This document shows, piece by piece, positions 9,352 through 24,285 of a stretch of DNA of 64,000 nucleotides (its first letter is position 1; each line of letters starts with the position of its first letter). The stretch comes from Litoreibacter halocynthiae (GTDB lineage Bacteria; Pseudomonadota; Alphaproteobacteria; Rhodobacterales; Rhodobacteraceae), in assembly GCF_004365635.1 (NCBI RefSeq), contig NZ_SOBH01000004.1, forward strand, positions 186,001 to 250,000. Direction: 5' to 3'. A program made the translations under genes and the position numbers. The notes under the pieces were generated by a model that saw only the letters and a list, made by a program, of their open reading frames with translations, did no database searches and was not told the DNA's origin.

Positions 9352-12300
9352 ATGAGTTTTGACCCCGAGAACCTCATCTCTGAGAGCGACATAGCCATCG
9401 TCGGAATGGCCGGACATTTTCCGGGCGCTCACACAATAGATGAGTACTGGCAAAATCTGCGAAATGGAATTGAGTCCATCCGCCATTACACCGCCGAAGA
9501 ATTGCTCGGGGCTGGAGAAGCCCAACACCTCATAAATCGTGACGACTATGTCCCAGCAGCGGCCCCTCTGGATGGGTTCGCACATTTTGATGCAGAGTTT
9601 TTCGGCCTCTCGCCCAAAGAAGCCGCGATCATGGATCCGCAACATCGGCGCTTTCTGGAGGTCTCTTGGGAAGCCCTGGAAAACGCCGGACATATGCCCG
9701 AAAACGCCAAGGGCCCAATCGGGGTCTACGCCGGCTGCGGGATGGGAAGCTATTTCTACTTTAACATCTGCTCGAACCCAGATCTTGTTAACGATGTGGG
9801 CATGTTCCTACTTCGCCATACCGGCAACGACAAGGACTTCCTGTCTACCCGTTTGAGCCACGTTCTGAACCTAAAAGGCCCGTCAGTGACCATGCAGACC
9901 GCATGCTCTACATCACTGGTTACGACCCACTATGCGGCACAGGCCTTGATGACAGGCGAATGCGATACCGCGCTTGCTGGCGGTGTCACAATCGAGCTAC
10001 CTCAAGATCGCGGCTACATATTCAAGGAAGGCGAAGTGCTGTCTCCAGACGGGCACTGCCACGCATTCGATCACCGCGCGGAAGGTACCGTCTTCGGGTC
10101 AGGGGCCGGTGTTGTGGTCCTACGACGTCTCACGGATGCCATCGCAGACGGCGACCACATCTGGGCGGTTATCAAAGGCTCTGCCATCAACAATGACGGG
10201 GCAGCCAAAGCAGGATACCTAGCCCCGTCAGTCGACGGTCAGGCGGCAGCGATCGCCGAGGCCCAGTCCATGGCAAATATAACTGCTGACACGATCGATT
10301 ACGTCGAATGCCACGGTACAGGAACATATTTGGGCGATCCAATCGAAGTGGCGGCGTTGACCGAAGCCTTCGAGGAAACCACAGATGAGACCCAGTTTTG
10401 CAAAATTGGGTCTGTTAAAACCAACATTGGACACCTCGACACCGCGGCTGGCGCGGCCGGATTGATCAAAACGGCGCTTTCGCTTCATCACCGCGAGATT
10501 CCACCATCTTTGGGATATGAGAAACCAAACCCTGCGATTGATTTCGAAAGCGGACCATTCTCTGTCAATGACACCCTTAGCCCTTGGATCTCTCACAATG
10601 GACCGCGCCGCGCAGGAGTGAATTCACTTGGTGTCGGGGGCACCAACGCACATTTGGTATTGGAAGAAGCCCCCAAGCGCGCTGCTTCTGAAGAATCGGA
10701 TTGGCCGTTCCAAATCTTGACCGTATCGGGGCGCAGTAAGGCTGCGCTTGAAGCCAACGCCGCCAATCTTGCCGCCTACCTACGCACCAACCCGGATCAA
10801 CCCCTCGCGGATATCGCTTGGACGTTGAAAGAACGCCGTCGCGGATTTGAACGCCGTAGGGTTGTAGTGGCTGAAACCCACGCCGACGCCGCCAAACTTC
10901 TGGAAGATAACGATCCGCGCCGCGCCTTTTCGCATACCGTGGTTGGCGAAGACCCTGATTACGTTTTCATGTTCCCCGGTGGTGGCGCACAATATGCCGG
11001 AATGGCACGCGATCTTTATGAGACGGAACCAGTATTCGCCGAATGGATGGATCGTGGTCTCGACGTTCTTCAATCAAAACTAGATTATGATATCCGTGCG
11101 CTTTGGCTGCCGGAATTGGACGCGATTGAGGCCGCAAACACGACGTTGAAAAAACCGTCCGTGCAGTTGCCCCTCATCATGATCACCGAATATGCGTTGG
11201 CGCAGCTTTGGATGTCTTGGGGGGTTGAGCCTTCTGCACTGGTTGGTCACTCCATGGGGGAAAACACTGCCGCTTGCGTTGCTGGAGTGATATCGTTCGA
11301 GGACTGCATTGGCCTTGTGCATCTCCGCGGCCAATTGTTCGACACGGTGCCAGCGGGCGGCATGTTGTCCATCGTTCTATCGGCTGATGAGTTGGAGCCT
11401 CTGTTAGGTGATGATCTTGATTTGGGAGCGGTGAACGCGCCAAATTTAAGCGTCGCTACTGGACCACAAGCCGAGTTGGACGCATTGGAAACGCGGTTGA
11501 TCCAACGAAGCATCGACTTTCAGCGCATCCCGATCGACATCGCGGCCCATTCGCGCATGTTAGAGCCGATTTTGCAAAAGTTTGGCGACTACTTGCGATC
11601 AATTCCCCTGAACCCACCGAATATTCCGTTCACGTCAAACCGCACCGGCGATTACATAACGGACGCGCAGGCTCAAGATCCTGACTACTGGGTGGCCCAC
11701 CTACGCGGCACCGTACATTTCTCCGATTGCCTGACAACTTTGGCCGAACCACCCGCGCGCGTTTTCATCGAGGTTGGACCTGGGAAGGCGTTGTCATCTT
11801 TGGCCGGCCAACACGGCAAGGTTACCGCCAATCAGGTGATCTCCAGCCTGCGTCATCCTGACGATGACACGCCTGACGATGCATATTTCCTTGCCATGCT
11901 GGGTCGTATCTGGGCCGTCGGCGGCCAATTTGATTGGGACCAGTTCTGGGGCGAGGCACGCCGATTACACGTACCGCTACCAACATATGCTTTCCAGCAA
12001 TCCTCCTATTTTATAGAGCCGGGGAAACCTGCATTAGACAGTGATGCACAATGGCTAAGCCGAACGGACGACGTTGAGGAATGGAGCTATCGCCCTGCGT
12101 GGACCCCGCGCTACGCGGAGTGCGATATCGACGTCAAAGGTGATTTATCGGAAGCCACCAAACAAACATGGCTGATTTTCGAGGATGACGCAGGGCTTGG
12201 AGCAGATGTCGCCGCCAAACTGCGCTCGGCAGATCATAAAGTGGTGACCGTTAAACCCGGTGACACTTTCGCGCGCGTCGGGGAAATGGGCTACATCATC

Positions 12301-15300
12301 GCCCCTGAACGCGGTCGCGAAAGCTATGATGCGCTAATCCATGACCTAAACACGCGCGACCTGGTTCCAACGCGCATCGTCCATGCCTGGACGATAACCA
12401 AGGACGAAAGCTTCCGACCGGGATCAAGCTTCTTTCACCGCGTTCAGGAGCAAGGATTCTATAGTCTGCTATTTCTAGCACAGGCGATTGGGGGCGAAGA
12501 CCTGCCGATGCCGATACACCTTACCGTGCTTAGTTCGGGCGCAATGCAACGCGCGAACGAAGAACTCCCCTACCCTGAAAAAGCAACGGTCGCAGGACCT
12601 GTGCGTGTTATACCGCGCGAGTTCTCTGGAATGACCGTGTCGCAACTGGATATCGAGCCGCTTCGTCAAGGGCGTCTCAGGCGCGGACCTGACAAGACCG
12701 ACCAATCGCGTATTGTAGGTCAGATTTTGGAAGAGGTTCTTGCAACACCGACATGCGGGACTGCCCTGATCCGCAACGATAAACGCTATGCGCTTGGCTA
12801 TCAGACAACCAACCTTCCTGTTCTTGATAGCGAATTACCCGTTCTGAAAGACGGCGGTGTCTACCTGCTGACGGGTGGCTTTGGTGGCATCGGCCTGACC
12901 CTTGCGCACGAGTTGATCGAGCGATGTAACGCCAAAATAGCGCTGCTTGCTCGCAGCCCGTTGCCCCCTCGCGACACTTGGGACCAGGCGTTGCAAAACA
13001 ACGCCCCGGGTACCGCCATAGTTCGCCGAATTGAAGGTATTCGCGAGCTAGAAGCTATGGGCGGCGAAGTCCTGACGCTAGTTGCCGACGTGTCCAATGT
13101 CGAAGATATGCGGCTAGCAAAGTCCACGCTGGAAGAACACTTCGGTAAAGTCGATGGTATCATCCATGCTGCTGGTCAAATAGATGACGGTCCGATCATG
13201 GCCAAAACAGTTACTTCGATTGAGGACGTATTTGCGCCGAAAATTCATGGCACGCAGGTTCTTCACGAAGTCTTTCCCGATGGCTCCTTGGATTGGATAG
13301 TTCTGTTTTCATCAAGCTCCACGGCGACGGCCCCGATCGGTCAGGTCGATTACGTTGCTGCAAATGAATACCTCAACGCCTATGCCAAGTCGCGCAGCGG
13401 TGGGCAAACCCGCGTGTTAGCCATCAATTGGGGCATCTGGGCTGATGTAGGCATGGCGGCGGACGCAATGGACAGTCGGTTGGGCAAAGCGGCCCCGCCA
13501 CCGGTGACCCCGATCAATGCGCCAATGTTGGACGAGGCGACGTTTGATTCCGCTGGAAACCGCTGCTTTAGAGCCGAATACCGCGTCTCGGAGCGCTGGT
13601 TCCTAGATGATCACCGAACAAAAGCAGGTGATGCGTTGGTACCTGGAACGGGTTACCTTGAGCTGGCAACAGAAGCTCTGCGCGCGCAAGGTGAGACCTC
13701 TGCTTTTGAGATCCGTGATCTCTACTTCCTGCGCCCGTTGACTGTCTCCGATCATGCGCCTCGCGACATTCGTGTGGGTCTGCTACGGACCGATCTTGGG
13801 TATGACCTGAGTGTAGAAAGTGGCGAACTCGGGCAATTTGAGCAAAACGCGCAAGCCAGTCTCTCGTTATTACCAGTTTCCGCCCCCGCCCCTTTAGATA
13901 TCGCCGCCATCGAGGCCCGCTGTTCGAACAAGGTCGACGCCGGAGATGCAGGTTGGATGGCGTCACCGCAAGAAGTTCACCTTAACTTCGGCCCACGCTG
14001 GCGCGTATTACAATCAACCACTCTAGGCGACGGTGAAGGTCTCGCGACACTCGCGTTACCAGATGCTGCAGCAGGTGATGCTAAAGCAGGTTACTATCTG
14101 CACCCTGCCCTGATGGATATTGCAACGGGTTGGGCCATGAATCTGATCGCAGGCTACGAGGCGGCGCATCTCTGGGTGCCAGTGTCTTATCGCTCAGTAA
14201 AGGTATTTGGGCCATTACCGTCAAATATTGTCTCTTGGGTCCGCAATAGCGCGGACAATCGGGCAGATAGCGAAACGGCGAGTTTTGACATCACTATCGC
14301 TGCGCCCGACGGCACAATATGCGTTGAAATCCACGACTTCTCAATCCGGCGGATGGACACAGATGCTAGCTTCGCGATCACCCCTCTCTCGACCGCTTCA
14401 GCGGCCCCGGCCGATGGCGGCATGCGGCCACTATCCCCAGCTGAGGAGCGACTACGACACAATCTGACCCAAGGCATTCGCGCGGATGAAGGCGCGGCGC
14501 TGTTTTTGCGCGCACTCTCGAGTCCGCAGCGTCAGGTCATTGTCTCATCCCTCGATTTGGATGCGCTCATAGAACAAGCTGGACAAGTTGATGACGGTGC
14601 TCAAGGCCGGGGGCAAAAATTTGAACGCCCTGAACTTGATTCCGAATTCATAAAACCAGAGGGCCCAATCGAAGAGCGGCTGGCCGCTTTCTGGCAAGAC
14701 CTGTTGGGTGTCGATGAAATCGGTGTCGAAGACAGCTTCTTCGATTTAGGTGGCCACTCATTGATAGCCGTGCGCCTGTTTGCACAAATACGCAAAGCTT
14801 GGCAGGTAGACTTCCCGATCTCGGTCCTGTTCGAGGCCCCTACAATCCGCAAATGCGCTGCGCTCATTGCGGCGCAGGGGGTTAACAATGAGACGGATGC
14901 CGACAGCGAAGATATAGCCCAAGCCTCGCCGGAACGTCGCTTCACCCATCTGGTGCCAATGCATACCGGCGAAAACAGCACCAAGTCGCCATTCTTCTTG
15001 GTCGCGGGCATGTTTGGGAACGTATTAAACCTGCGCCATCTGGCACATTTGGTTGGAAATGATCGGCCATTCTATGGCCTACAAGCCCGTGGATTGTTTG
15101 GCAGCGAAGAACCACACCGTACGATCACTGAGGCCGCGCGTGACTACATCGCGGAAATGCGGCAAGTTCAACCCGAAGGCCCCTATATGGTGGGCGGGTT
15201 CTCTGGTGGCGGGATTACCGCGTATGAGATTGCTCACCAGTTAACTGCTGCAGGTGAAATCGTCTCCGCCGTGGTAATGCTCGACACTCCTCTTCCCATT

Positions 15301-15801
15301 CGACCATCCATTTCTCGGGCGGATAAAATGCGCATCAAATGGATGGACCTGCGTAAGGGCGGCGTGTCCTACATCGTTAATTGGGCCAAAGACCGCATCG
15401 CATGGGAAATCCAAAAACGTCGCGGGAACGATGACGCCGCCGAGGAAGGCCAGCAGTTCCACAATGTCGCCATCCAAGACGCCTTCCTTGAAAGCGTCGG
15501 GTCGTATGAAATCGCCCCATGGTCAGGGCCTTTGACCTTATTTCGCCCACCATTGGTTCCGACTTGGATCATTGGTGACAAGCTGGTCAGCGAATATCGG
15601 ACATATCTGTATAGTGACAACGATTGGACAAAATTTGCTCCCAAGGTCGAGGTGTTCGAAGTGCCAGGCGATCACGATTCAATGGTACTAGAACCCAATG
15701 TTCGCGTTTTAGCAGCTCGTATTAAACAGGTGCTCGAAGATGCGAGCCGTGCCTCACATACCTCAAAGAAAGCCGCACCGACCAAGCAAGCCGCAGAGTA
15801 A
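9352..15801 (+). CDS. One-module type I polyketide synthase, KS-AT-KR-DH-ACP-TE
   Basis: Modular PKS of 2149 residues. KS (about 10-435) has TACSTS, VECHGTGT and TNIGH, so Cys-His-His are present. AT (about 540-830) has GHSMGE and an AAHS specificity region, more like malonyl than methylmalonyl types. A spacer and KR (about 1165-1350) carry TGGFGGIG, an IDDG loop of B-type and the active-site DYVAAN. DH (about 1385-1680) has DDHRTKAGDALVPG and HPALMDIATG. ACP has its Ser in GGHSLIAV near residue 1801. TE (about 1870-2125) has GGFSGGG and PGDHDS. KR before DH departs from the textbook order. AAGG lies seven bases before the ATG. It probably accepts a starter from the NRPS encoded downstream and releases through its own TE. 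Confidence 0.93.
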   Translation: MSFDPENLISESDIAIVGMAGHFPGAHTIDEYWQNLRNGIESIRHYTAEELLGAGEAQHLINRDDYVPAAAPLDGFAHFDAEFFGLSPKEAAIMDPQHRRFLEVSWEALENAGHMPENAKGPIGVYAGCGMGSYFYFNICSNPDLVNDVGMFLLRHTGNDKDFLSTRLSHVLNLKGPSVTMQTACSTSLVTTHYAAQALMTGECDTALAGGVTIELPQDRGYIFKEGEVLSPDGHCHAFDHRAEGTVFGSGAGVVVLRRLTDAIADGDHIWAVIKGSAINNDGAAKAGYLAPSVDGQAAAIAEAQSMANITADTIDYVECHGTGTYLGDPIEVAALTEAFEETTDETQFCKIGSVKTNIGHLDTAAGAAGLIKTALSLHHREIPPSLGYEKPNPAIDFESGPFSVNDTLSPWISHNGPRRAGVNSLGVGGTNAHLVLEEAPKRAASEESDWPFQILTVSGRSKAALEANAANLAAYLRTNPDQPLADIAWTLKERRRGFERRRVVVAETHADAAKLLEDNDPRRAFSHTVVGEDPDYVFMFPGGGAQYAGMARDLYETEPVFAEWMDRGLDVLQSKLDYDIRALWLPELDAIEAANTTLKKPSVQLPLIMITEYALAQLWMSWGVEPSALVGHSMGENTAACVAGVISFEDCIGLVHLRGQLFDTVPAGGMLSIVLSADELEPLLGDDLDLGAVNAPNLSVATGPQAELDALETRLIQRSIDFQRIPIDIAAHSRMLEPILQKFGDYLRSIPLNPPNIPFTSNRTGDYITDAQAQDPDYWVAHLRGTVHFSDCLTTLAEPPARVFIEVGPGKALSSLAGQHGKVTANQVISSLRHPDDDTPDDAYFLAMLGRIWAVGGQFDWDQFWGEARRLHVPLPTYAFQQSSYFIEPGKPALDSDAQWLSRTDDVEEWSYRPAWTPRYAECDIDVKGDLSEATKQTWLIFEDDAGLGADVAAKLRSADHKVVTVKPGDTFARVGEMGYIIAPERGRESYDALIHDLNTRDLVPTRIVHAWTITKDESFRPGSSFFHRVQEQGFYSLLFLAQAIGGEDLPMPIHLTVLSSGAMQRANEELPYPEKATVAGPVRVIPREFSGMTVSQLDIEPLRQGRLRRGPDKTDQSRIVGQILEEVLATPTCGTALIRNDKRYALGYQTTNLPVLDSELPVLKDGGVYLLTGGFGGIGLTLAHELIERCNAKIALLARSPLPPRDTWDQALQNNAPGTAIVRRIEGIRELEAMGGEVLTLVADVSNVEDMRLAKSTLEEHFGKVDGIIHAAGQIDDGPIMAKTVTSIEDVFAPKIHGTQVLHEVFPDGSLDWIVLFSSSSTATAPIGQVDYVAANEYLNAYAKSRSGGQTRVLAINWGIWADVGMAADAMDSRLGKAAPPPVTPINAPMLDEATFDSAGNRCFRAEYRVSERWFLDDHRTKAGDALVPGTGYLELATEALRAQGETSAFEIRDLYFLRPLTVSDHAPRDIRVGLLRTDLGYDLSVESGELGQFEQNAQASLSLLPVSAPAPLDIAAIEARCSNKVDAGDAGWMASPQEVHLNFGPRWRVLQSTTLGDGEGLATLALPDAAAGDAKAGYYLHPALMDIATGWAMNLIAGYEAAHLWVPVSYRSVKVFGPLPSNIVSWVRNSADNRADSETASFDITIAAPDGTICVEIHDFSIRRMDTDASFAITPLSTASAAPADGGMRPLSPAEERLRHNLTQGIRADEGAALFLRALSSPQRQVIVSSLDLDALIEQAGQVDDGAQGRGQKFERPELDSEFIKPEGPIEERLAAFWQDLLGVDEIGVEDSFFDLGGHSLIAVRLFAQIRKAWQVDFPISVLFEAPTIRKCAALIAAQGVNNETDADSEDIAQASPERRFTHLVPMHTGENSTKSPFFLVAGMFGNVLNLRHLAHLVGNDRPFYGLQARGLFGSEEPHRTITEAARDYIAEMRQVQPEGPYMVGGFSGGGITAYEIAHQLTAAGEIVSAVVMLDTPLPIRPSISRADKMRIKWMDLRKGGVSYIVNWAKDRIAWEIQKRRGNDDAAEEGQQFHNVAIQDAFLESVGSYEIAPWSGPLTLFRPPLVPTWIIGDKLVSEYRTYLYSDNDWTKFAPKVEVFEVPGDHDSMVLEPNVRVLAARIKQVLEDASRASHTSKKAAPTKQAAE

Positions 15802-15807
15802 ATACCC

Positions 15808-16812
15808 ATGCCAGCACCCACTGTTTTGACGATCATTCTTAATTACAAAACCGCCGATATGACCCTGCGTTCGGCTCAAGCGGCACGGATCGCCATGCAG
15901 GGTCTGCCTGGCGAAATCACAATAGTCGATAACGACAGTCAGGATGGGTCTTTTGAGAAGATTCGCGACCATGTCGAGGCCGAGCAATGGGAAGGCATCC
16001 GTGTTCTTAAATCAGGGCACAATGGCGGATACGGAGCCGGGAATAATGTTGGAATCCGTGCGGGAATGTCGGATGGCACAGCACCTGATTTCATCTATAT
16101 TCTAAATTCTGATGCATTTCCCGAACCCGAAGCGATCACTGAACTTTACAACTTTTTGCAAACCCACCCAAAAACTGGCTTTGTGGGTAGCTATATCTTT
16201 GGTGAAGACGGTGATCGGCACACAACTACATTCCGGTTTCCCTCAATCCTCAGCGAACTTGAAAGCGCCATCCGCTTCGGTCCTATTACAAAGCTGCTAA
16301 AGTCTTACAGGGTTCCACGCGAAGATATTGTAGGGACAGCATCTGTAGATTGGCTTGCCGGGGCCAGCATGATGATGCGCCGAAGCGTGCTTGATGAAAT
16401 AGGGCTCTTTGATGAGACCTTCTTTCTATACTTTGAAGAAGCTGATCTGTGCGCGCGCGCGCGGTCATCAAATTATTCTATACACTATGTGTATGAAAGC
16501 CGGGTAATGCACTTGGGCTCCGTGTCTACTGGTATGAAGACGTGGGACCGCGTGCCAGATTACTGGTTTGAATCCCGTTTTCATTATTTCCAAAAGAACT
16601 ATGGCCTCACCTATGCTGGCTTCGCCACTTTGGTTCACCTCAGTGCGGGAAGTTTGCATTGGCTGCGCTGCAGGTTGACCGGAAAAACGCGTGATGTGTC
16701 CCCAAACTTCCTGCGCTCCATGGCAAAACACGATTTTGCCAACATTATCGGCTCTATTACGGGCACGACCCATAACCAATCACCTGAACTCGACACTAAA
16801 ATCGGAGAGTAG
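15808..16812 (+). CDS. Glycosyltransferase family 2, rhamnosyltransferase-like
   Basis: GT-A enzyme of 334 residues lying six bases after the PKS and five before the NRPS, so it is part of the operon. The N-terminus LTIILNYKTADM, the nucleotide-binding VDNDSQDGS, NGGYGAGNN and the metal-binding position ILNSDAF are those of the rhamnosyltransferase-like GT2 group, followed by WLAGASMMMRR and FFLYFEEADLC. dTDP-rhamnose can be made by the rfb genes near the end of the island. Its position suggests it glycosylates the PKS/NRPS product, or that the product is attached to a glycan. That role is inferred from context alone. Confidence 0.87.
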   Translation: MPAPTVLTIILNYKTADMTLRSAQAARIAMQGLPGEITIVDNDSQDGSFEKIRDHVEAEQWEGIRVLKSGHNGGYGAGNNVGIRAGMSDGTAPDFIYILNSDAFPEPEAITELYNFLQTHPKTGFVGSYIFGEDGDRHTTTFRFPSILSELESAIRFGPITKLLKSYRVPREDIVGTASVDWLAGASMMMRRSVLDEIGLFDETFFLYFEEADLCARARSSNYSIHYVYESRVMHLGSVSTGMKTWDRVPDYWFESRFHYFQKNYGLTYAGFATLVHLSAGSLHWLRCRLTGKTRDVSPNFLRSMAKHDFANIIGSITGTTHNQSPELDTKIGE

Positions 16813-16817
16813 ATCCC

Positions 16818-19800
16818 ATGTCTCAATTCAGCGCGGTTGTCATCGGCAATGAATCCCTCGCCATTCAGTGCGCGGAAATGTTGCTTGAGGCGGGGCACCA
16901 AGTATCCGCAGTAGTCACGCGTAACACCGATATCTCGGCTTGGGCAAAGGGCGCGGACATTCAGGCCATTTCTGCGGACGCCAATCTGGCTGAGGAAATG
17001 AACGGAATGTCTTTCGACTGGCTGCTTTCCATCGCCAATCTCGACATGATCCCCGACGACGTGCTCGCGATCCCTTCACGTGGCGCGGTAAACTTCCACG
17101 ATGGCCCACTACCCCGTTACGCTGGTTTAAACGCCCCAGCTTGGGCGTTGATTAATGGTGAAACCGAATATGGAATTAGCTGGCATATGATCGCTGGCGG
17201 CGTCGACGAAGGCGATTTGCTAACTCAGCAATTTTTTGACATCGCTCCGAACGAGACGACCCTAACCCTGAACACCAAATGCTATGGCGCCGCGATTGAA
17301 GGGTTCTCGACCGTAATAGATAAATTGGCCACTGAACAGCCGCTATTGACGAAACAAGACCTCTCCAAACGAAGCTATTTTGCCAAGAACGACCGCCCAC
17401 CTGCTGCGGGTCGGCTCGACTTCTCGCGCTCGGCGCGTAGCATCACGACATTGGTCCGCGCGCTGGATCATGGCGGCTATTGGAACCCCCTCACCTGCCC
17501 CAAAATTAATGCGAACGGCAAAATTTGGCTGGTATCACAGGCAACAGCCGGAAAAGCTGCATCTGACAGCCCCGCTGGTACGGTTCTTGACGTTAGCGAG
17601 GACAGCATAACCGTCGCCACCGGCACGGCCCCTGTGACCCTGCAAGGGCTTCGCAAGTTTAACGGTGCAGCGGCAGAACCCGCGGACATCGCGAAGTTGG
17701 GCGATGTGCTGCCTTCCCCCGATGCGGCTGTGGCGAAAGCCTTGTCGGATGGGTTGAAAAGAACCCTTAAGTCCGAAGCCAATTGGCGCGCACGACTTGA
17801 AGCCGCAACCGTGGCTACATTGCCCCTAATAGATGCATCAGCCTCGCAGGGTGAAATCAGGTCCCGCACGCTAGACTTACCCGAAGGGTTCACCCCCACG
17901 CACCTTAAATCAGCGATGACCGCCCTTGCTTTGCATCTAAGCGATGACGAAGGCATCACAATCGCCGCTGAACTCACGACAGATAACACCGGATATCTGA
18001 ATCCTTGGGGCCCTGTCCTAGCGTCCAATATCGAAGATGATCTTGCCGCCGCGCAGGCTATGGGGCCATTTGCCTCTGACCTTATTGCACGCATCCCCAG
18101 CCTAGCCAGGCCCGCAACACCTGCATTGGGTCTGTCAAAGCAATCGCATTTGGAAGGAACTGCGCTGACATTGGCGTCAGATGGCACTCTATTCGCGGAC
18201 ATCGGAAAGACCGGCCCAGAGGCGGTAGACTTGATGGGTGATCGGCTCTCTCACATGATCCATCAGATAGCGGCAGGCAAAGCGCCAACGATACTGCCCG
18301 AAGCAGAGCGCCAGCAAGTTCTCTACAACTGGAACGCGACTGCCACCGAATTCCCAGAGGACCTTTGCATCCACCAGGCGTTCGAAGCCCAAGTCGCCAA
18401 AACGCCCAACGCTGAAGCTCTATCGTTTGAAGGCGAGACACTGACCTACAGTGAGCTTAACACCCGTGCAAATAAAATGGCCCATGTGTTAACAGACATG
18501 GGAGTAGCACCTGAGGTAGTTGTCGGCCTACATTTGCCCCGATCCGCTGATCTTGTCATTGCCGCGTTGGCCATCTTGAAGGCGGGCGGCGCCTATCTGC
18601 CAATGGACCCAAGTTACCCCACAGATCGCACCGCTCTTTATATTGAGGACAGCGGAACTAAAGTAATCATCACAGATACTATTCTTGCGGATTTGTTGCC
18701 AAAGCATGCCGCCAGAGTTTTGTGTGTTGATGACGCCCCATCGCTGGATTCTGCCCCTTCGGAAAACCCCGAAAGTGGCGTGATCGGAGAAGGATTAGCC
18801 TATTTGATCTACACGTCCGGATCGACCGGCAAGCCTAAAGGCGTGATGGTTGAACACCGCAACGTCGCCAATTTCTTTACTGGTATGGATGGGCGCATCG
18901 CCCACGAAGACGGTTCCGTCTGGATGGCAGTGACGTCATTATCGTTTGACATATCGGTGCTGGAGCTATTCTGGACCCTCAGCCGCGGCTTCAAGGTTGT
19001 CATCAGTTCGGATGATAATCGAACTCTCGGGACGACAGATAGCCCGTCAGGGCACACTGTTGGAGGTATGGAGTTCAGCCTTTTCTATTGGGGTAACGAC
19101 GACGGCGTTGGTCGCGACAAGTACCGCACGCTTCTTGAAGGTGCAAAGTTCGCGGATCAAAACGGATTTTGTGCAGTTTGGACCCCGGAGCGCCACTTCC
19201 ACGCCTTCGGCGGCCCCTACCCTAACCCATCCGTCACCGGTGCGGCGGTCGCGGCCGTGACCCAGAATATTGGCGTACGGGCTGGCTCCTGCGTGGCCCC
19301 ACTCCATCACACCGCCCGCATTGCCGAAGAATGGGCGGTGGTCGACAACCTCACGAACGGGAAAGCCGGCCTGGCGATTGCATCCGGCTGGCAACCTGAT
19401 GACTTCGTGTTGCGTCCAGAGAACACTCCACCCAAAAACAAGCCCGCGATGTTCGAAGCAATCGCTGACCTGCGCAAGCTTTGGTCCGGTGAAGAGATCT
19501 CTTTCCCGCGCGAGAATGGCGAAATGCACAACGTCCTTACGCAGCCTCGGCCGGTGTCAAAGAAGCTTGATGTTTGGGTCACGACCGCAGGCAATCCCGA
19601 GACCTGGAAAGAAGCGGGTGCCAACGGCTGCAACGTGCTGACGCACCTATTAGGTCAAAGCGTGGGTGAAGTCGGTGAGAAGATCATTCTTTATCATCAA
19701 GCTTTACGTGATGCTGGTCATAACCCTGATGATTTCACAGTCACTTTGATGTTGCACTCCTTCTTGGCCGAGACTCGCGAGCAGGCGCGAGAAATCGCAC

Positions 19801-21458
19801 GCGAACCAATGAAGGACTATCTTCGCGCGGCTGCGGGATTGATCAAGCAATACGCATGGGCGTTCCCGGCTTTCAAGAAGCCAAAGGGCGTAGAAAACCC
19901 CATGCAGCTCGATCTTGGGTCTCTGACCGAGGACGAGCTGGAAGGTATTTTGGATTTCGCTTTTGAGCGCTATTTCAACGATAGCGGCCTGTTCGGCACC
20001 ATCGAGGAGGCCATGGAGCGGGTCGAGGAGGTCAAAGCCATTGGCGTAACTGAAATCGCCTGCCTTATCGACTACGGCATCAATGTGGAGCAGGTCCTTG
20101 AAGGATTGCGACCTCTGGCTGAGGTGGTGAAGCTTTCAAATGCAGACGTCGCGACGACAGCACATGACTATTCCATCGCAGCCCAAATTCAGCACCACAA
20201 AGTTACGCATCTGCAATGCACACCCTCTATGGCGCAAATGCTGGTGATGACAGACGAGGCCCGTGTAGCCCTGCCCCAACTGGATGTGATGATGGTGGGT
20301 GGCGAAGCCTTGTCTGGCGCGTTGGCCGCCGAATTGAAGTCACTCACGGGCGGTCACGTGGAAAATATGTATGGCCCGACCGAGACAACTATTTGGTCCA
20401 CGACCCAGACCGCTACTGGCGGCGAAGGCGTGGTGTCTATCGGGACTCCAATCGCAAATACCCAAGTTTACGTATTGGATGACAACATGGAACCACGCCC
20501 AATAGGCGTGCCAGGAGAGTTGTATATCGCAGGCGCCGGGGTTACCCGTGGTTATTTCAAGCGCCCTGACCTGACCTCCGAACGCTTCGTTCGCGATCCA
20601 TTCGTTAGTGACGCCGATCCCGACAGGGCTGGTGCCGGCTTGATGTATCGCACCGGCGATATCGCGCGTTGGCAACCAGATGGCACACTTGATTTCTTAG
20701 GCCGTGCTGACTTCCAAGTGAAGCTGCGCGGCTATCGCGTGGAACTAGGTGAGATTGAGACCGCAATCGACCAGTTCGAAGGTATCAAGCAATCAGTCGT
20801 GGTGACACGCGAAGACAGCCCCGGCCAGTTGGTCGCTTACATGCTGTCCAACGACGACGTCGACCAAGATGCTTTGCGCACCCATCTGCGCGACACCCTA
20901 CCGGACTACATGGTGCCACATCATTTCGTGACGTTGAACGCCTTCCCATTGTCCCCGAACAAGAAGGTGGACCGCAACGCTTTGCCCGCGCCGTCTGAAG
21001 TGCAAGCCCAAAGCAGTTCCACCCCAAATGCTGCGGCGAAAGCAGAGGACGCATCTACCACTCCGAACAACATGAGCTCAGACGAAGAAGTCACCCAGGC
21101 AATCGCTGCCATTTGGTCGCATACGTTGAACATTCCCAACATCGCGCCGAAGGATAACTTCTTTGATCTTGGAGGGCATTCCCTTCTGGCGGTTCAAGTG
21201 CATCGCGAGATCCGCCAACGGTTGAATGTGCAAAAGCTCTCGATCACCGACATTTTCCGTGCGCCAACTCTAAGTGCCTTGTCGGCCATCGTCGCGAAGA
21301 AGGCAGGTGTTACAGCAATGCCCAAAGCCCCTACTGCGGCGCCCCCTCAACCAGAGGCGGCTTCTGAGCCACCCGCCCGACCCGAGCCTGACAATGCTCG
21401 CAGCGCAGCGATGGCCAAGCGTCGCGAAATGCGCGCGCGGCGACAAAACCGGACGTGA
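16818..21458 (+). CDS. NRPS: formyltransferase - A domain interrupted by luciferase-like monooxygenase - PCP
   Basis: Synthetase of 1546 residues. Residues 1-300 are a 10-formyl-THF-dependent formyltransferase with catalytic N92, H94 (NFHDGPLP) and D130 (GGVDEGD). About 325-530 resembles the back half of a condensation domain without HHxxxDG. The A domain starts near 541 (LTYSELN) with A3 YTSGSTGKPKG and A4 FDISVLELFW. A flavin-dependent luciferase-like monooxygenase of about 360 residues (about 745-1105, starting near MEFSLFYWGNDDG) is inserted, then A5 NMYGPTETTIW, A7 YRTGD, A8 and A10 follow. PCP has GGHSLLAV near 1451. The specificity residues read by eye as D-I-L-Q-M-G-M-I-W, close to the known glycine code. 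The F-A-PCP order resembles the LgrA initiation module, so it probably makes an N-formylated, possibly oxidised, glycyl starter. Confidence 0.92.
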   Translation: MSQFSAVVIGNESLAIQCAEMLLEAGHQVSAVVTRNTDISAWAKGADIQAISADANLAEEMNGMSFDWLLSIANLDMIPDDVLAIPSRGAVNFHDGPLPRYAGLNAPAWALINGETEYGISWHMIAGGVDEGDLLTQQFFDIAPNETTLTLNTKCYGAAIEGFSTVIDKLATEQPLLTKQDLSKRSYFAKNDRPPAAGRLDFSRSARSITTLVRALDHGGYWNPLTCPKINANGKIWLVSQATAGKAASDSPAGTVLDVSEDSITVATGTAPVTLQGLRKFNGAAAEPADIAKLGDVLPSPDAAVAKALSDGLKRTLKSEANWRARLEAATVATLPLIDASASQGEIRSRTLDLPEGFTPTHLKSAMTALALHLSDDEGITIAAELTTDNTGYLNPWGPVLASNIEDDLAAAQAMGPFASDLIARIPSLARPATPALGLSKQSHLEGTALTLASDGTLFADIGKTGPEAVDLMGDRLSHMIHQIAAGKAPTILPEAERQQVLYNWNATATEFPEDLCIHQAFEAQVAKTPNAEALSFEGETLTYSELNTRANKMAHVLTDMGVAPEVVVGLHLPRSADLVIAALAILKAGGAYLPMDPSYPTDRTALYIEDSGTKVIITDTILADLLPKHAARVLCVDDAPSLDSAPSENPESGVIGEGLAYLIYTSGSTGKPKGVMVEHRNVANFFTGMDGRIAHEDGSVWMAVTSLSFDISVLELFWTLSRGFKVVISSDDNRTLGTTDSPSGHTVGGMEFSLFYWGNDDGVGRDKYRTLLEGAKFADQNGFCAVWTPERHFHAFGGPYPNPSVTGAAVAAVTQNIGVRAGSCVAPLHHTARIAEEWAVVDNLTNGKAGLAIASGWQPDDFVLRPENTPPKNKPAMFEAIADLRKLWSGEEISFPRENGEMHNVLTQPRPVSKKLDVWVTTAGNPETWKEAGANGCNVLTHLLGQSVGEVGEKIILYHQALRDAGHNPDDFTVTLMLHSFLAETREQAREIAREPMKDYLRAAAGLIKQYAWAFPAFKKPKGVENPMQLDLGSLTEDELEGILDFAFERYFNDSGLFGTIEEAMERVEEVKAIGVTEIACLIDYGINVEQVLEGLRPLAEVVKLSNADVATTAHDYSIAAQIQHHKVTHLQCTPSMAQMLVMTDEARVALPQLDVMMVGGEALSGALAAELKSLTGGHVENMYGPTETTIWSTTQTATGGEGVVSIGTPIANTQVYVLDDNMEPRPIGVPGELYIAGAGVTRGYFKRPDLTSERFVRDPFVSDADPDRAGAGLMYRTGDIARWQPDGTLDFLGRADFQVKLRGYRVELGEIETAIDQFEGIKQSVVVTREDSPGQLVAYMLSNDDVDQDALRTHLRDTLPDYMVPHHFVTLNAFPLSPNKKVDRNALPAPSEVQAQSSSTPNAAAKAEDASTTPNNMSSDEEVTQAIAAIWSHTLNIPNIAPKDNFFDLGGHSLLAVQVHREIRQRLNVQKLSITDIFRAPTLSALSAIVAKKAGVTAMPKAPTAAPPQPEAASEPPARPEPDNARSAAMAKRREMRARRQNRT

Positions 21459-22099
21459 CAGAAAAAATACGATCTACTCTGCGCGAGATGCTTGGTGACG
21501 AGGTTGGGATAGGCATCACTGATCCACGTGATCCAGAGCAGGGTCTGCTTGAAGCCGAGTATCCAGCCATTGCAAGTGCGGTGCCAAAACGTCGACGCGA
21601 ATACGCAGCTGGCCGTCGGGCTGCTCGCGCCGCCATGACTGAACTAGGGCTTCCACCAGCACCGATTTTAACGGGAACTCAGCGGGAACCACTTTGGCCG
21701 CACGGGCTGGTAGGTTCTATTGCTCATTGCAACACGCTGTGCATTGCTGCTGTTAGCCTTACCCATCGCAGCATCGGATTAGATGTTGAACCCGCAGTGC
21801 CGCTTCCATCCGATTTGGAACGCATTGTCTGCACCCCAACGGAGCGTCATTGGCTGAAAACTCTTCCCATCAATGATCGCGGGCTTAATGCCAGGAAAAT
21901 CTTCAGCGCCAAAGAAGCCGTATATAAAGCGCAATATCTGGTAACGAGCCAGATGATTGGATTTGAGGACGTCAATATTCAGTTTGAAGGCGTAGACTTC
22001 ACGGCTGATCTGCCCAGCACCCTGACAATTCAAAGCATGTCTGGGCAGCTGCGGTTAGTCGAAGACTACCTGTTAGGATCTGTCCGGATCGACATGTGA
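21455..22099 (+). CDS. 4'-phosphopantetheinyl transferase (EntD/Sfp type)
   Basis: Enzyme of 214 residues that converts apo-ACP and apo-PCP to the holo form using CoA, as the two carrier domains just upstream require. It shows the EntD-like motifs RREYAAGRRAAR, PLWPHGLVGSIAHC, the metal-binding IGLDVEP and FSAKEAVYK. The GTG start overlaps the NRPS stop (GTGA at 21455-21458), indicating translational coupling and membership of the same operon. The 3' end overlaps by 27 bases the convergent glycosyltransferase gene on the other strand. Confidence 0.92.
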   Translation: MTEKIRSTLREMLGDEVGIGITDPRDPEQGLLEAEYPAIASAVPKRRREYAAGRRAARAAMTELGLPPAPILTGTQREPLWPHGLVGSIAHCNTLCIAAVSLTHRSIGLDVEPAVPLPSDLERIVCTPTERHWLKTLPINDRGLNARKIFSAKEAVYKAQYLVTSQMIGFEDVNIQFEGVDFTADLPSTLTIQSMSGQLRLVEDYLLGSVRIDM

Positions 22100-23254: not shown

Positions 23255-23349
23255 TACACTTAAACCTAAGCGCCTTCCAATTCTGCGTTGCGTTGTTACA
23301 GTTGACGCTTATCCTCGTTCACAAGTCAAAGATTAGTAGGAATTTGGGG

Positions 23350-24285
23350 ATGACTAAAGCACTTGTCGTAGTTGCAGTGACCATTGCAGTTCTTAGCGCG
23401 CTTTATGTCTGGCGCAGCAGCAGCCACAAACCACTGGGTCAAGAAGCTTTCGACGCTCTGTACGAAGCGCCTGCCCCAAAGCCGCCCCAAACAATGAATG
23501 CGATGCACTTGGGCCATAGTCTTGTATCGCACGATATGCCCGAACTGCTCGTTCAGCTTTCTGACGGGCGCTATCACTATAACAGCCAACTTGGCTGGGG
23601 GACATTTTTGAAAGCCCACTGGGATCCGGACACGCCTATCAACGGGTTTGAGGATTCAAATGGTCACCCGCAATTCCGCGACGCACATGAAGCTATCGCT
23701 TCGGGTGAATATGATGCCATCATCCTTACCGAAGCCGTCGAAATCCGCGACTCCATCAAATACATGGACAGCGCCAAAATGTTGCATAACTGGGCGACCA
23801 AGGCGCGGGCCAATAATCCTGACGTCAGGGTTTATTTCTACGAAACTTGGCACGACCTCGATGATCCGGAAGGTTGGTTGGAGCGCCTCGATCGAGACCT
23901 AGAAATGTATTGGGAAGGAGCAATCCTGCGCCCTGCTCTAAACCTTGATGATAACCCGCAACCGATCTACGTGATCCCGGCAGGTCAAGTTATGGCACGA
24001 TTCGTGCGTGAAATTGAAAAGCGCGGTGGGGTTGGGCCAATCAAATCTCGGACAGACCTGTTCTCAGACACGATTCACTTCAACGCTTATGGTGCTTATC
24101 TAGTCGCCCTCACTCATTTTGCGGTATTGTATCAGACGTCTCCGGTCGGACTTCCCCATAATCTGGTCAAGTTTGACGGAACGCCCGCACCCGATCCGGG
24201 ACCGGAGGCTGCGAAGCTTATGCAGGAAATTGTTTGGGATGTCGTGACTCGATACAGCCGGACTGGCGTGCCGCAGCAAAACTAA
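23350..24285 (+). CDS. Membrane-anchored SGNH-hydrolase-like protein
   Basis: Protein of about 311 residues with one N-terminal hydrophobic segment (ALVVVAVTIAVLSALYVW), so probably anchored in the inner membrane facing the periplasm. A block I-like motif with serine, LGHSLVSHDMPE, and the C-terminal SDTIHFNAYGAYL, matching the DxxH catalytic block, point to the SGNH/GDSL fold used by esterases and by O-acetyl transferases of exopolysaccharide systems. The ATG at 23350, with AGGA about nine bases upstream, places the helix at the N-terminus and is preferred over 23293. It may alter polymer acylation. Function is inferred. Confidence 0.6.
   Translation: MTKALVVVAVTIAVLSALYVWRSSSHKPLGQEAFDALYEAPAPKPPQTMNAMHLGHSLVSHDMPELLVQLSDGRYHYNSQLGWGTFLKAHWDPDTPINGFEDSNGHPQFRDAHEAIASGEYDAIILTEAVEIRDSIKYMDSAKMLHNWATKARANNPDVRVYFYETWHDLDDPEGWLERLDRDLEMYWEGAILRPALNLDDNPQPIYVIPAGQVMARFVREIEKRGGVGPIKSRTDLFSDTIHFNAYGAYLVALTHFAVLYQTSPVGLPHNLVKFDGTPAPDPGPEAAKLMQEIVWDVVTRYSRTGVPQQN

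Follow-up and report, generated by a model that had tools for sequence, protein, structure and literature searches.

The window, i.e., the whole 64,000-nucleotide stretch of Litoreibacter halocynthiae DNA that was analyzed, contains at positions 16818–21458 of the plus strand an open frame of 1546 residues that encodes an F-(C lobe)-A[LLM]-PCP synthetase: a formyltransferase (F), the remnant of a condensation (C) domain, an adenylation (A) domain interrupted by a luciferase-like monooxygenase (LLM), and a peptidyl carrier protein (PCP). On the basis of its domain content and order, its conservation, a glycine-type code, the insertion site, the condensation remnant and a conserved polyketide synthase (PKS) partner, we propose, with a probability of about 0.68, that the protein is a glycine-specific starter module yielding N-formyl-α-hydroxyglycyl-S-PCP for the adjacent KS-AT-KR-DH-ACP-TE synthase. 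We infer all of the chemistry, its timing and the product of one extension from homology.

In the proposed pathway, the A domain would adenylate glycine and load it onto the PCP, and the F domain would move a formyl group from 10-formyl-THF onto the glycine amino group, like the F domains of NRPS initiation modules. Because the F domain would formylate the amino group, no upstream condensation step would be needed. The monooxygenase lodged between A4 and A5 would hydroxylate the alpha carbon with reduced FMN and O2 to give N-formyl-α-hydroxyglycyl-S-PCP. The KS of the neighboring PKS would accept this N-capped C2 unit and add one extender, assumed to be malonyl; the PKS would reduce and dehydrate the extended unit, and its TE would release the product. 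An earlier note on this DNA had read the protein as a starter module that formylates, and may hydroxylate or oxidize, one PCP-bound amino acid. That reading agrees with the domain layout and can now be narrowed to glycine as the amino acid and its alpha carbon as the oxidized position, whereas the contrast it drew with MtaG/MelG was wrong. The condensation remnant, the glycine-type code and the conserved partner PKS go beyond it.

A pattern scan of genome contigs returned 256 stretches, and tblastn showed a relative to be encoded in 252 of them. Of these 252 the best 80 were kept, and they are thus chosen by match. All 80 encode the window protein end to end with identities of 51–95%, two of them (L029 and L045) running into a contig end, and together with the window protein they form the 81-row alignment used throughout. 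Because the same protein, defined by its open frame and its Pfam and NCBIfam matches, is encoded end to end in these loci, chance or an assembly error is unlikely, and an assembly or fusion artefact was rejected. The contig titles of the 80 loci are nearly all of Rhodobacteraceae or Roseobacteraceae genera. One contig, L085, whose title names the actinobacterium Nocardioides marinus, also carries a full copy of the cluster, which is otherwise like the Rhodobacteraceae copies.

The interrupted adenylation domain

The A domain is encoded in two halves, detected by both Pfam (AMP-binding) and TIGR01733 as two stretches. The N-terminal half, with motifs A3 and A4, comprises residues 515–735 (18360–19022, plus strand; PF00501 over 522–735), and the C-terminal half, with motifs A5 through A10, comprises residues 1115–1395 (20160–21002, plus strand; TIGR01733 over 1115–1328, AMP-binding_C over 1312–1383). 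It is followed by the PCP at residues 1427–1490 (21096–21287, plus strand; PP-binding, PF00550), with a conserved GGHSLLAVQ motif. Between the halves lies the monooxygenase, residues 753–1103 (19074–20126, plus strand), which matches the MupA/Atu3671 family of FMN-dependent luciferase-like monooxygenases, TIGR04020 of NCBIfam, with 465.9 bits against a cut-off of 244.45 over model positions 1–340 of 341; Bac_luciferase of Pfam covers residues 761–1078. Apart from the insert the A domain is complete, with A4 (FDISVLELFWTL) in the upstream half and A5 (NMYGPTETTIW) in the downstream half. The earlier note had claimed a luciferase-like domain at about 745–1105 and its insertion between A4 and A5, and both claims are borne out. 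An AlphaFold2 model of residues 495–1400 has a mean pLDDT of 81.5 and a pTM of 0.55, so that its domain folds are usable while their relative placement is not; a Foldseek search with this model found both NRPS A domains and the Ox domain of PuwE (PDB code 6ket).

This Ox domain, from puwainaphycin biosynthesis, is the closest solved monooxygenase to the insert (329 bits; TMt of 0.89 to the window model). In the available text of PMC4219810 it is flanked by PKS and NRPS modules and sits outside any A domain, and the authors predict that it contributes to the formation of a 3-amino-2-hydroxy acyl unit. The insertion site was compared in 22 further loci (L101–L105, L123–L131 and L136–L143). In 16 of them the LLM lies within an A domain and always separates the same two halves, and in the other six (L105, L127, L130, L131, L140 and L143) it is standalone or PKS-attached. 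A tree of the LLM domains is long-branched, with good support at few of its deep forks, and the position it gives to one standalone LLM, L130, amid the F-type rows is weakly supported (92/78); given these branches and this support, no conclusion was drawn from it. Two A domains are interrupted twice, by a monooxygenase between A4 and A5 and a methyltransferase at approximately A8–A9; one is in an alphaproteobacterial genome (L124:7306–12918) and the other on a plasmid of Nostoc sp. C052 (L137:5703–11150).

The ten-residue code of the window A domain is DILQMGMIWK, with positions assigned by motif on GrsA numbering. The same code occurs in 56 of the 81 rows, DILQLGMIWK in 24 and DILQLGMVWK in one; the tenth position is lysine throughout (81/81). 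For the 90 residues around A5, a fragment of DhbF (PDB code 5u89), whose A domain presumably takes glycine, is the better of two matches, with Q-L-G-L-I-W at the corresponding places. The code DILQLGMIWK is common to all four glycine A domains that carry a monooxygenase (MOX) in the available text of PMC12283262. The window code differs from this published MOX-Gly code by one residue and is therefore assigned to the glycine type.

Two of the nearest described systems, with which the window protein was compared by published description, are MtaG/MelG of myxothiazol and melithiazol biosynthesis and SolF of solanimycin biosynthesis. The earlier note had placed the MtaG/MelG insertion at A8–A9. 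The positions are the reverse in the available text of PMC10204066, which puts the flavin monooxygenase (FMO) of the myxothiazol and melithiazol systems at a4–a5 and that of SolF at a8–a9; the insertion site of the window protein is therefore the known MtaG/MelG site. A4–A5 is listed among the known insertion sites of A domains in PMC8097286 as well, in the part available. MtaG/MelG likewise have a glycine A domain, and in the accessible portions of PMC10204066 and PMC11342130 the FMO inside such domains acts at the glycine alpha carbon, both for solanimycin B and for myxothiazol and melithiazol.

According to the same portions of these two papers, MtaG/MelG cut the completed chain, which leaves as an amide, and glyoxylate is set free by a TE, so that oxidation at the very A4–A5 site leads to a cleavage that leaves a glyoxyl thioester. 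By analogy, the N-formyl carbinolamide formed here might collapse, with formamide leaving and a glyoxylyl thioester on the PCP priming the PKS. We consider this course unlikely: it would seem wasteful to formylate glycine and then lose the group as formamide, and the F active-site residues nonetheless never vary among the 81 aligned proteins; in addition, solanimycin B keeps its hydroxyglycine in the available text of PMC10204066. Unlike MtaG/MelG, moreover, the window module comes first, has an F in place of a working C domain and would feed a PKS; because a working C domain is absent, the starter holds no peptide chain that could leave as an amide. Retention of the hydroxylated carbon, as in the starter proposed here, has its parallel in module 4 of SolF, which also combines a glycine A domain with an FMO and whose α-hydroxyglycine is kept and extended. 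SolF differs in that its FMO lies at a8–a9 of an internal module, for which the available text of PMC10204066 mentions no formyltransferase.

Solanimycin A, as described in the same available text, arises when the FMO step is skipped, and the window module might by the same token make only N-formylglycyl-S-PCP, its monooxygenase being idle or oxidizing something else. The pattern of conservation makes this very improbable: the mean column identity is 75% for the stretch of A domain and insert versus 52% for F and the C remnant, and the insert contains long, nearly invariant runs in the 81-row alignment. Against the hydroxylation proposed here counts the finding that no flavin reductase was seen among the 23 window proteins scanned or the ten annotated neighbor families, as judged by general annotation rather than by a dedicated search. 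In a separate setting, Streptomyces sp. NBC_01343 (L138:11048–11569), a flavin reductase family gene lies directly 3' of a C-A[LLM]-PCP-TE gene and is a possible supplier of FMNH2.

Formyltransferase and condensation remnant

The F domain comprises residues 1–292 (16818–17693, plus strand; PF00551/PF02911), with Formyl_trans_N at 53–166 and Formyl_trans_C at 196–292. As the earlier note had stated, it precedes the A domain and contains N92, H94 and D130, which are invariant in 81/81 aligned proteins. The layout is that of an LgrA-type F-A-PCP protein, with an N-terminal F that has the catalytic Asn, His and Asp, no working C domain, and the A domain and PCP on one chain. LgrA of linear gramicidin biosynthesis likewise opens an NRPS with a formyltransferase in cis, and both window A halves match it among others. 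The LgrA starter is not known to contain a C-lobe remnant or an oxygenase. It differs in its F domain as well, which is a distant match to the window F (E ~1e-5) and ranks below sugar-nucleotide, ArnA and Fmt formyltransferases among PDB sequences (best 3.4e-17). The AlphaFold2 model of residues 1–520 (mean pLDDT 92.4) matches Fmt/ArnA structures of the PDB by Foldseek; the 50 matches listed are exclusively formyltransferases and formyl-THF dehydrogenase/hydrolase domains, and the condensation lobe was not picked up among them. In the available text of the 2022 review PMC8949500, NRPS F domains act on an amino acid already loaded onto the T domain, have been described from initiation modules alone, and account for just three known products.

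The F domain is followed by what remains of a condensation domain, its C-terminal lobe, at residues 300–510 (17715–18347, plus strand), identified by profile match. This region is weakly conserved in the 81 rows. Its profile aligns to columns 169–489 of 499, the C-terminal part, of a C-domain profile with a probability of 98.6 and an E-value of 1.2e-14; repeat comparisons gave 97.2 and 95.8, and ten negative-control NRPS/PKS domain profiles all gave 5.2 or less. The half that would contain HHxxxDG is absent, as no HHxxxD(G/A) motif occurs in the first 620 residues of any of the 81 rows. Single C sequences mostly gave no match: six of eight scored 13 or lower and only L124C (95.3) and L129C2 (75.2) scored well, the profile comparison alone being the strong evidence. 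A C domain precedes the same A[LLM] in L124, L129, L137 and L138 (by Pfam) and in L139 and L141 (by BLAST); that of L124 is full-length but has an altered motif, SHAILDS. The simplest reading is that a formyltransferase took over the position of a C domain's catalytic half, by which an elongation module would have become a starter.

The partner polyketide synthase and its neighbors

Upstream of the synthetase, and on the same strand, are a type I PKS of 2149 residues with KS-AT-KR-DH-ACP-TE domains by Pfam (9352–15801) and a family 2 glycosyltransferase (GT2; 15808–16812; PF00535). Both are present in 80/80 of the best loci, with the order PKS, GT2, NRPS kept in every one. The catalytic residues of the PKS (C/H/H of KS, S of AT, Y of KR, H and D of DH, S of ACP and S of TE) are invariant in 77/77 rows, which comprise the window and the 76 loci with a PKS frame longer than 1900 residues. 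Downstream, also on the plus strand, are a 4'-phosphopantetheinyl transferase (21455–22099; PF17837/PF01648; 73/80 loci) and a small conserved protein (23293–24285) with a similar gene in 55/80 loci. The latter is SGNH-hydrolase-like by eye, with GHSL and DTIH motifs and an N-terminal membrane stretch, its DUF4886 match being below the cut-off; it could add or remove acyl groups.

Outside the 80 loci, the formyltransferase is fused in cis in nine further loci (L101–L104, L123, L125, L126, L128 and L142, of which L104 and L123 are nearly identical), and all nine adjoin this PKS. The GT2 gene is not beside the NRPS in L101 and L102, and the PKS of L142 appears as two frames that overlap. The unit is also found in Hyphomicrobiales, and in Deinococcus it occurs with its formyltransferase encoded separately. 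In L103 (Aliiroseovarius) and L125, the F-A[LLM]-PCP gene is followed by KS-AT-KR-DH-ACP-C-A, with a subsequent PCP and TE seen in L103; the L125 stretch ends before that point. On a plasmid of Deinococcus actinosclerus (L136, 5086–17068), a separate formyltransferase gene, 29.9% identical to the window F domain, lies directly before A[LLM]-PCP, and the PKS follows; the N-terminal part there matches neither the remnant nor the C profile significantly. A polysaccharide biosynthesis gene lies upstream of this row. The arrangements in L103, L125 and L136 support a shared pathway for F, A[LLM]-PCP and PKS, and they suggest a line order from F-A[LLM]-PCP to the PKS.

Three further points weigh against the glycine starter proposed here. 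Formyl-hemiaminal thioesters could fragment; in Deinococcus the last domain of the PKS is a C domain rather than a TE; and formyl is not the only possible cap, because L124 pairs the same PKS with the altered full C domain and a methyltransferase in place of F.

The cluster has a probable counterpart in Inhi_1972/1974 of Phaeobacter inhibens, named only as PKS and NRPS in the available text of PMC4062626. No other paper on that cluster was found in the open-licence literature by the locus tags tried, and the available parts of PMC4359443, PMC8273931, PMC7333567 and PMC12735020 mention such clusters in general terms or not at all.

Polysaccharide setting and implications

The genome of L. halocynthiae (3.68 Mb) has 19 GT2/GT4 Pfam matches, 18 of them over the cut-off, and nine lie within approximately 61 kb around the cluster, its own GT2 included. 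In the 63 of the 80 loci with more than 26 kb of DNA, at least one of seven polysaccharide-type families is present in 59 and at least two in 52. These counts have no independent null, because the families were chosen for their frequency in the same loci, and the sole background is the glycosyltransferase density of the own genome. None of the seven is present in L024, L050, L077 and L094, although L050 has other such genes. Neighbor representatives match the Pfam models of GT4, GT2, WecG/TagA/CpsF and a flippase, and all matches to the EpsE, XrtA chain-length determinant and XrtA tyrosine autokinase models fall below the NCBIfam cut-offs. Relatives in Aminobacter and Shinella are also found among polysaccharide genes. 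A VPLPA-type exosortase (TIGR04152, 626.5 bits; G000:C4:168497–169963) lies near the polysaccharide region, 16 kb before the window and approximately 33 kb before the NRPS. A general link to it was rejected, as VPLPA exosortases are over the cut-off in 3/20 of the genomes with TIGR04020 over its own cut-off (the window's genome included) and in 15/101 overall.

This setting, and the affinity of the F domain to sugar-nucleotide, ArnA and Fmt formyltransferases rather than LgrA, would suit an F domain whose substrate is an amino sugar from the polysaccharide pathway around it instead of PCP-glycine, its fusion to the NRPS being incidental. We give this little credence: F is in cis in all 81 aligned proteins and nine further loci, it appears to occupy the former place of the condensation N-lobe, in Deinococcus the separate F gene still adjoins that for A[LLM]-PCP, and L103 has F without polysaccharide genes annotated around it.

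A cell-surface product of the cluster is possible, because many copies lie among polysaccharide genes; the setting is an association, not a function. The combination of F, glycine A[MOX]-PCP and a KS-AT-KR-DH-ACP synthase, which ends in a TE in most loci and in a C domain in Deinococcus, might make a short N-formyl-hemiaminal acyl unit destined for the cell surface, either linked to or incorporated in an extracellular polysaccharide or another surface material. We advance this tentatively and regard it as doubtful.

A monooxygenase within a glycine A domain and F-A-PCP starters are each already known; no paper describing the two together was found in the open-licence literature. What is new is the predicted union of two rare features, cis N-formylation and glycine hydroxylation from within the A domain, in one starter module, and the remnant suggests how that module originated, with a formyltransferase where the catalytic half of a C domain used to be. 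TIGR04020 is over its cut-off in 20 of 101 genomes of relatives (own included) and in 19 of 398 drawn across the phylum. The combination recurs widely in marine bacteria, many of them Rhodobacteraceae, in which, if the cell-surface proposal is true, the assembly line would supply the cell envelope rather than make a free antibiotic.
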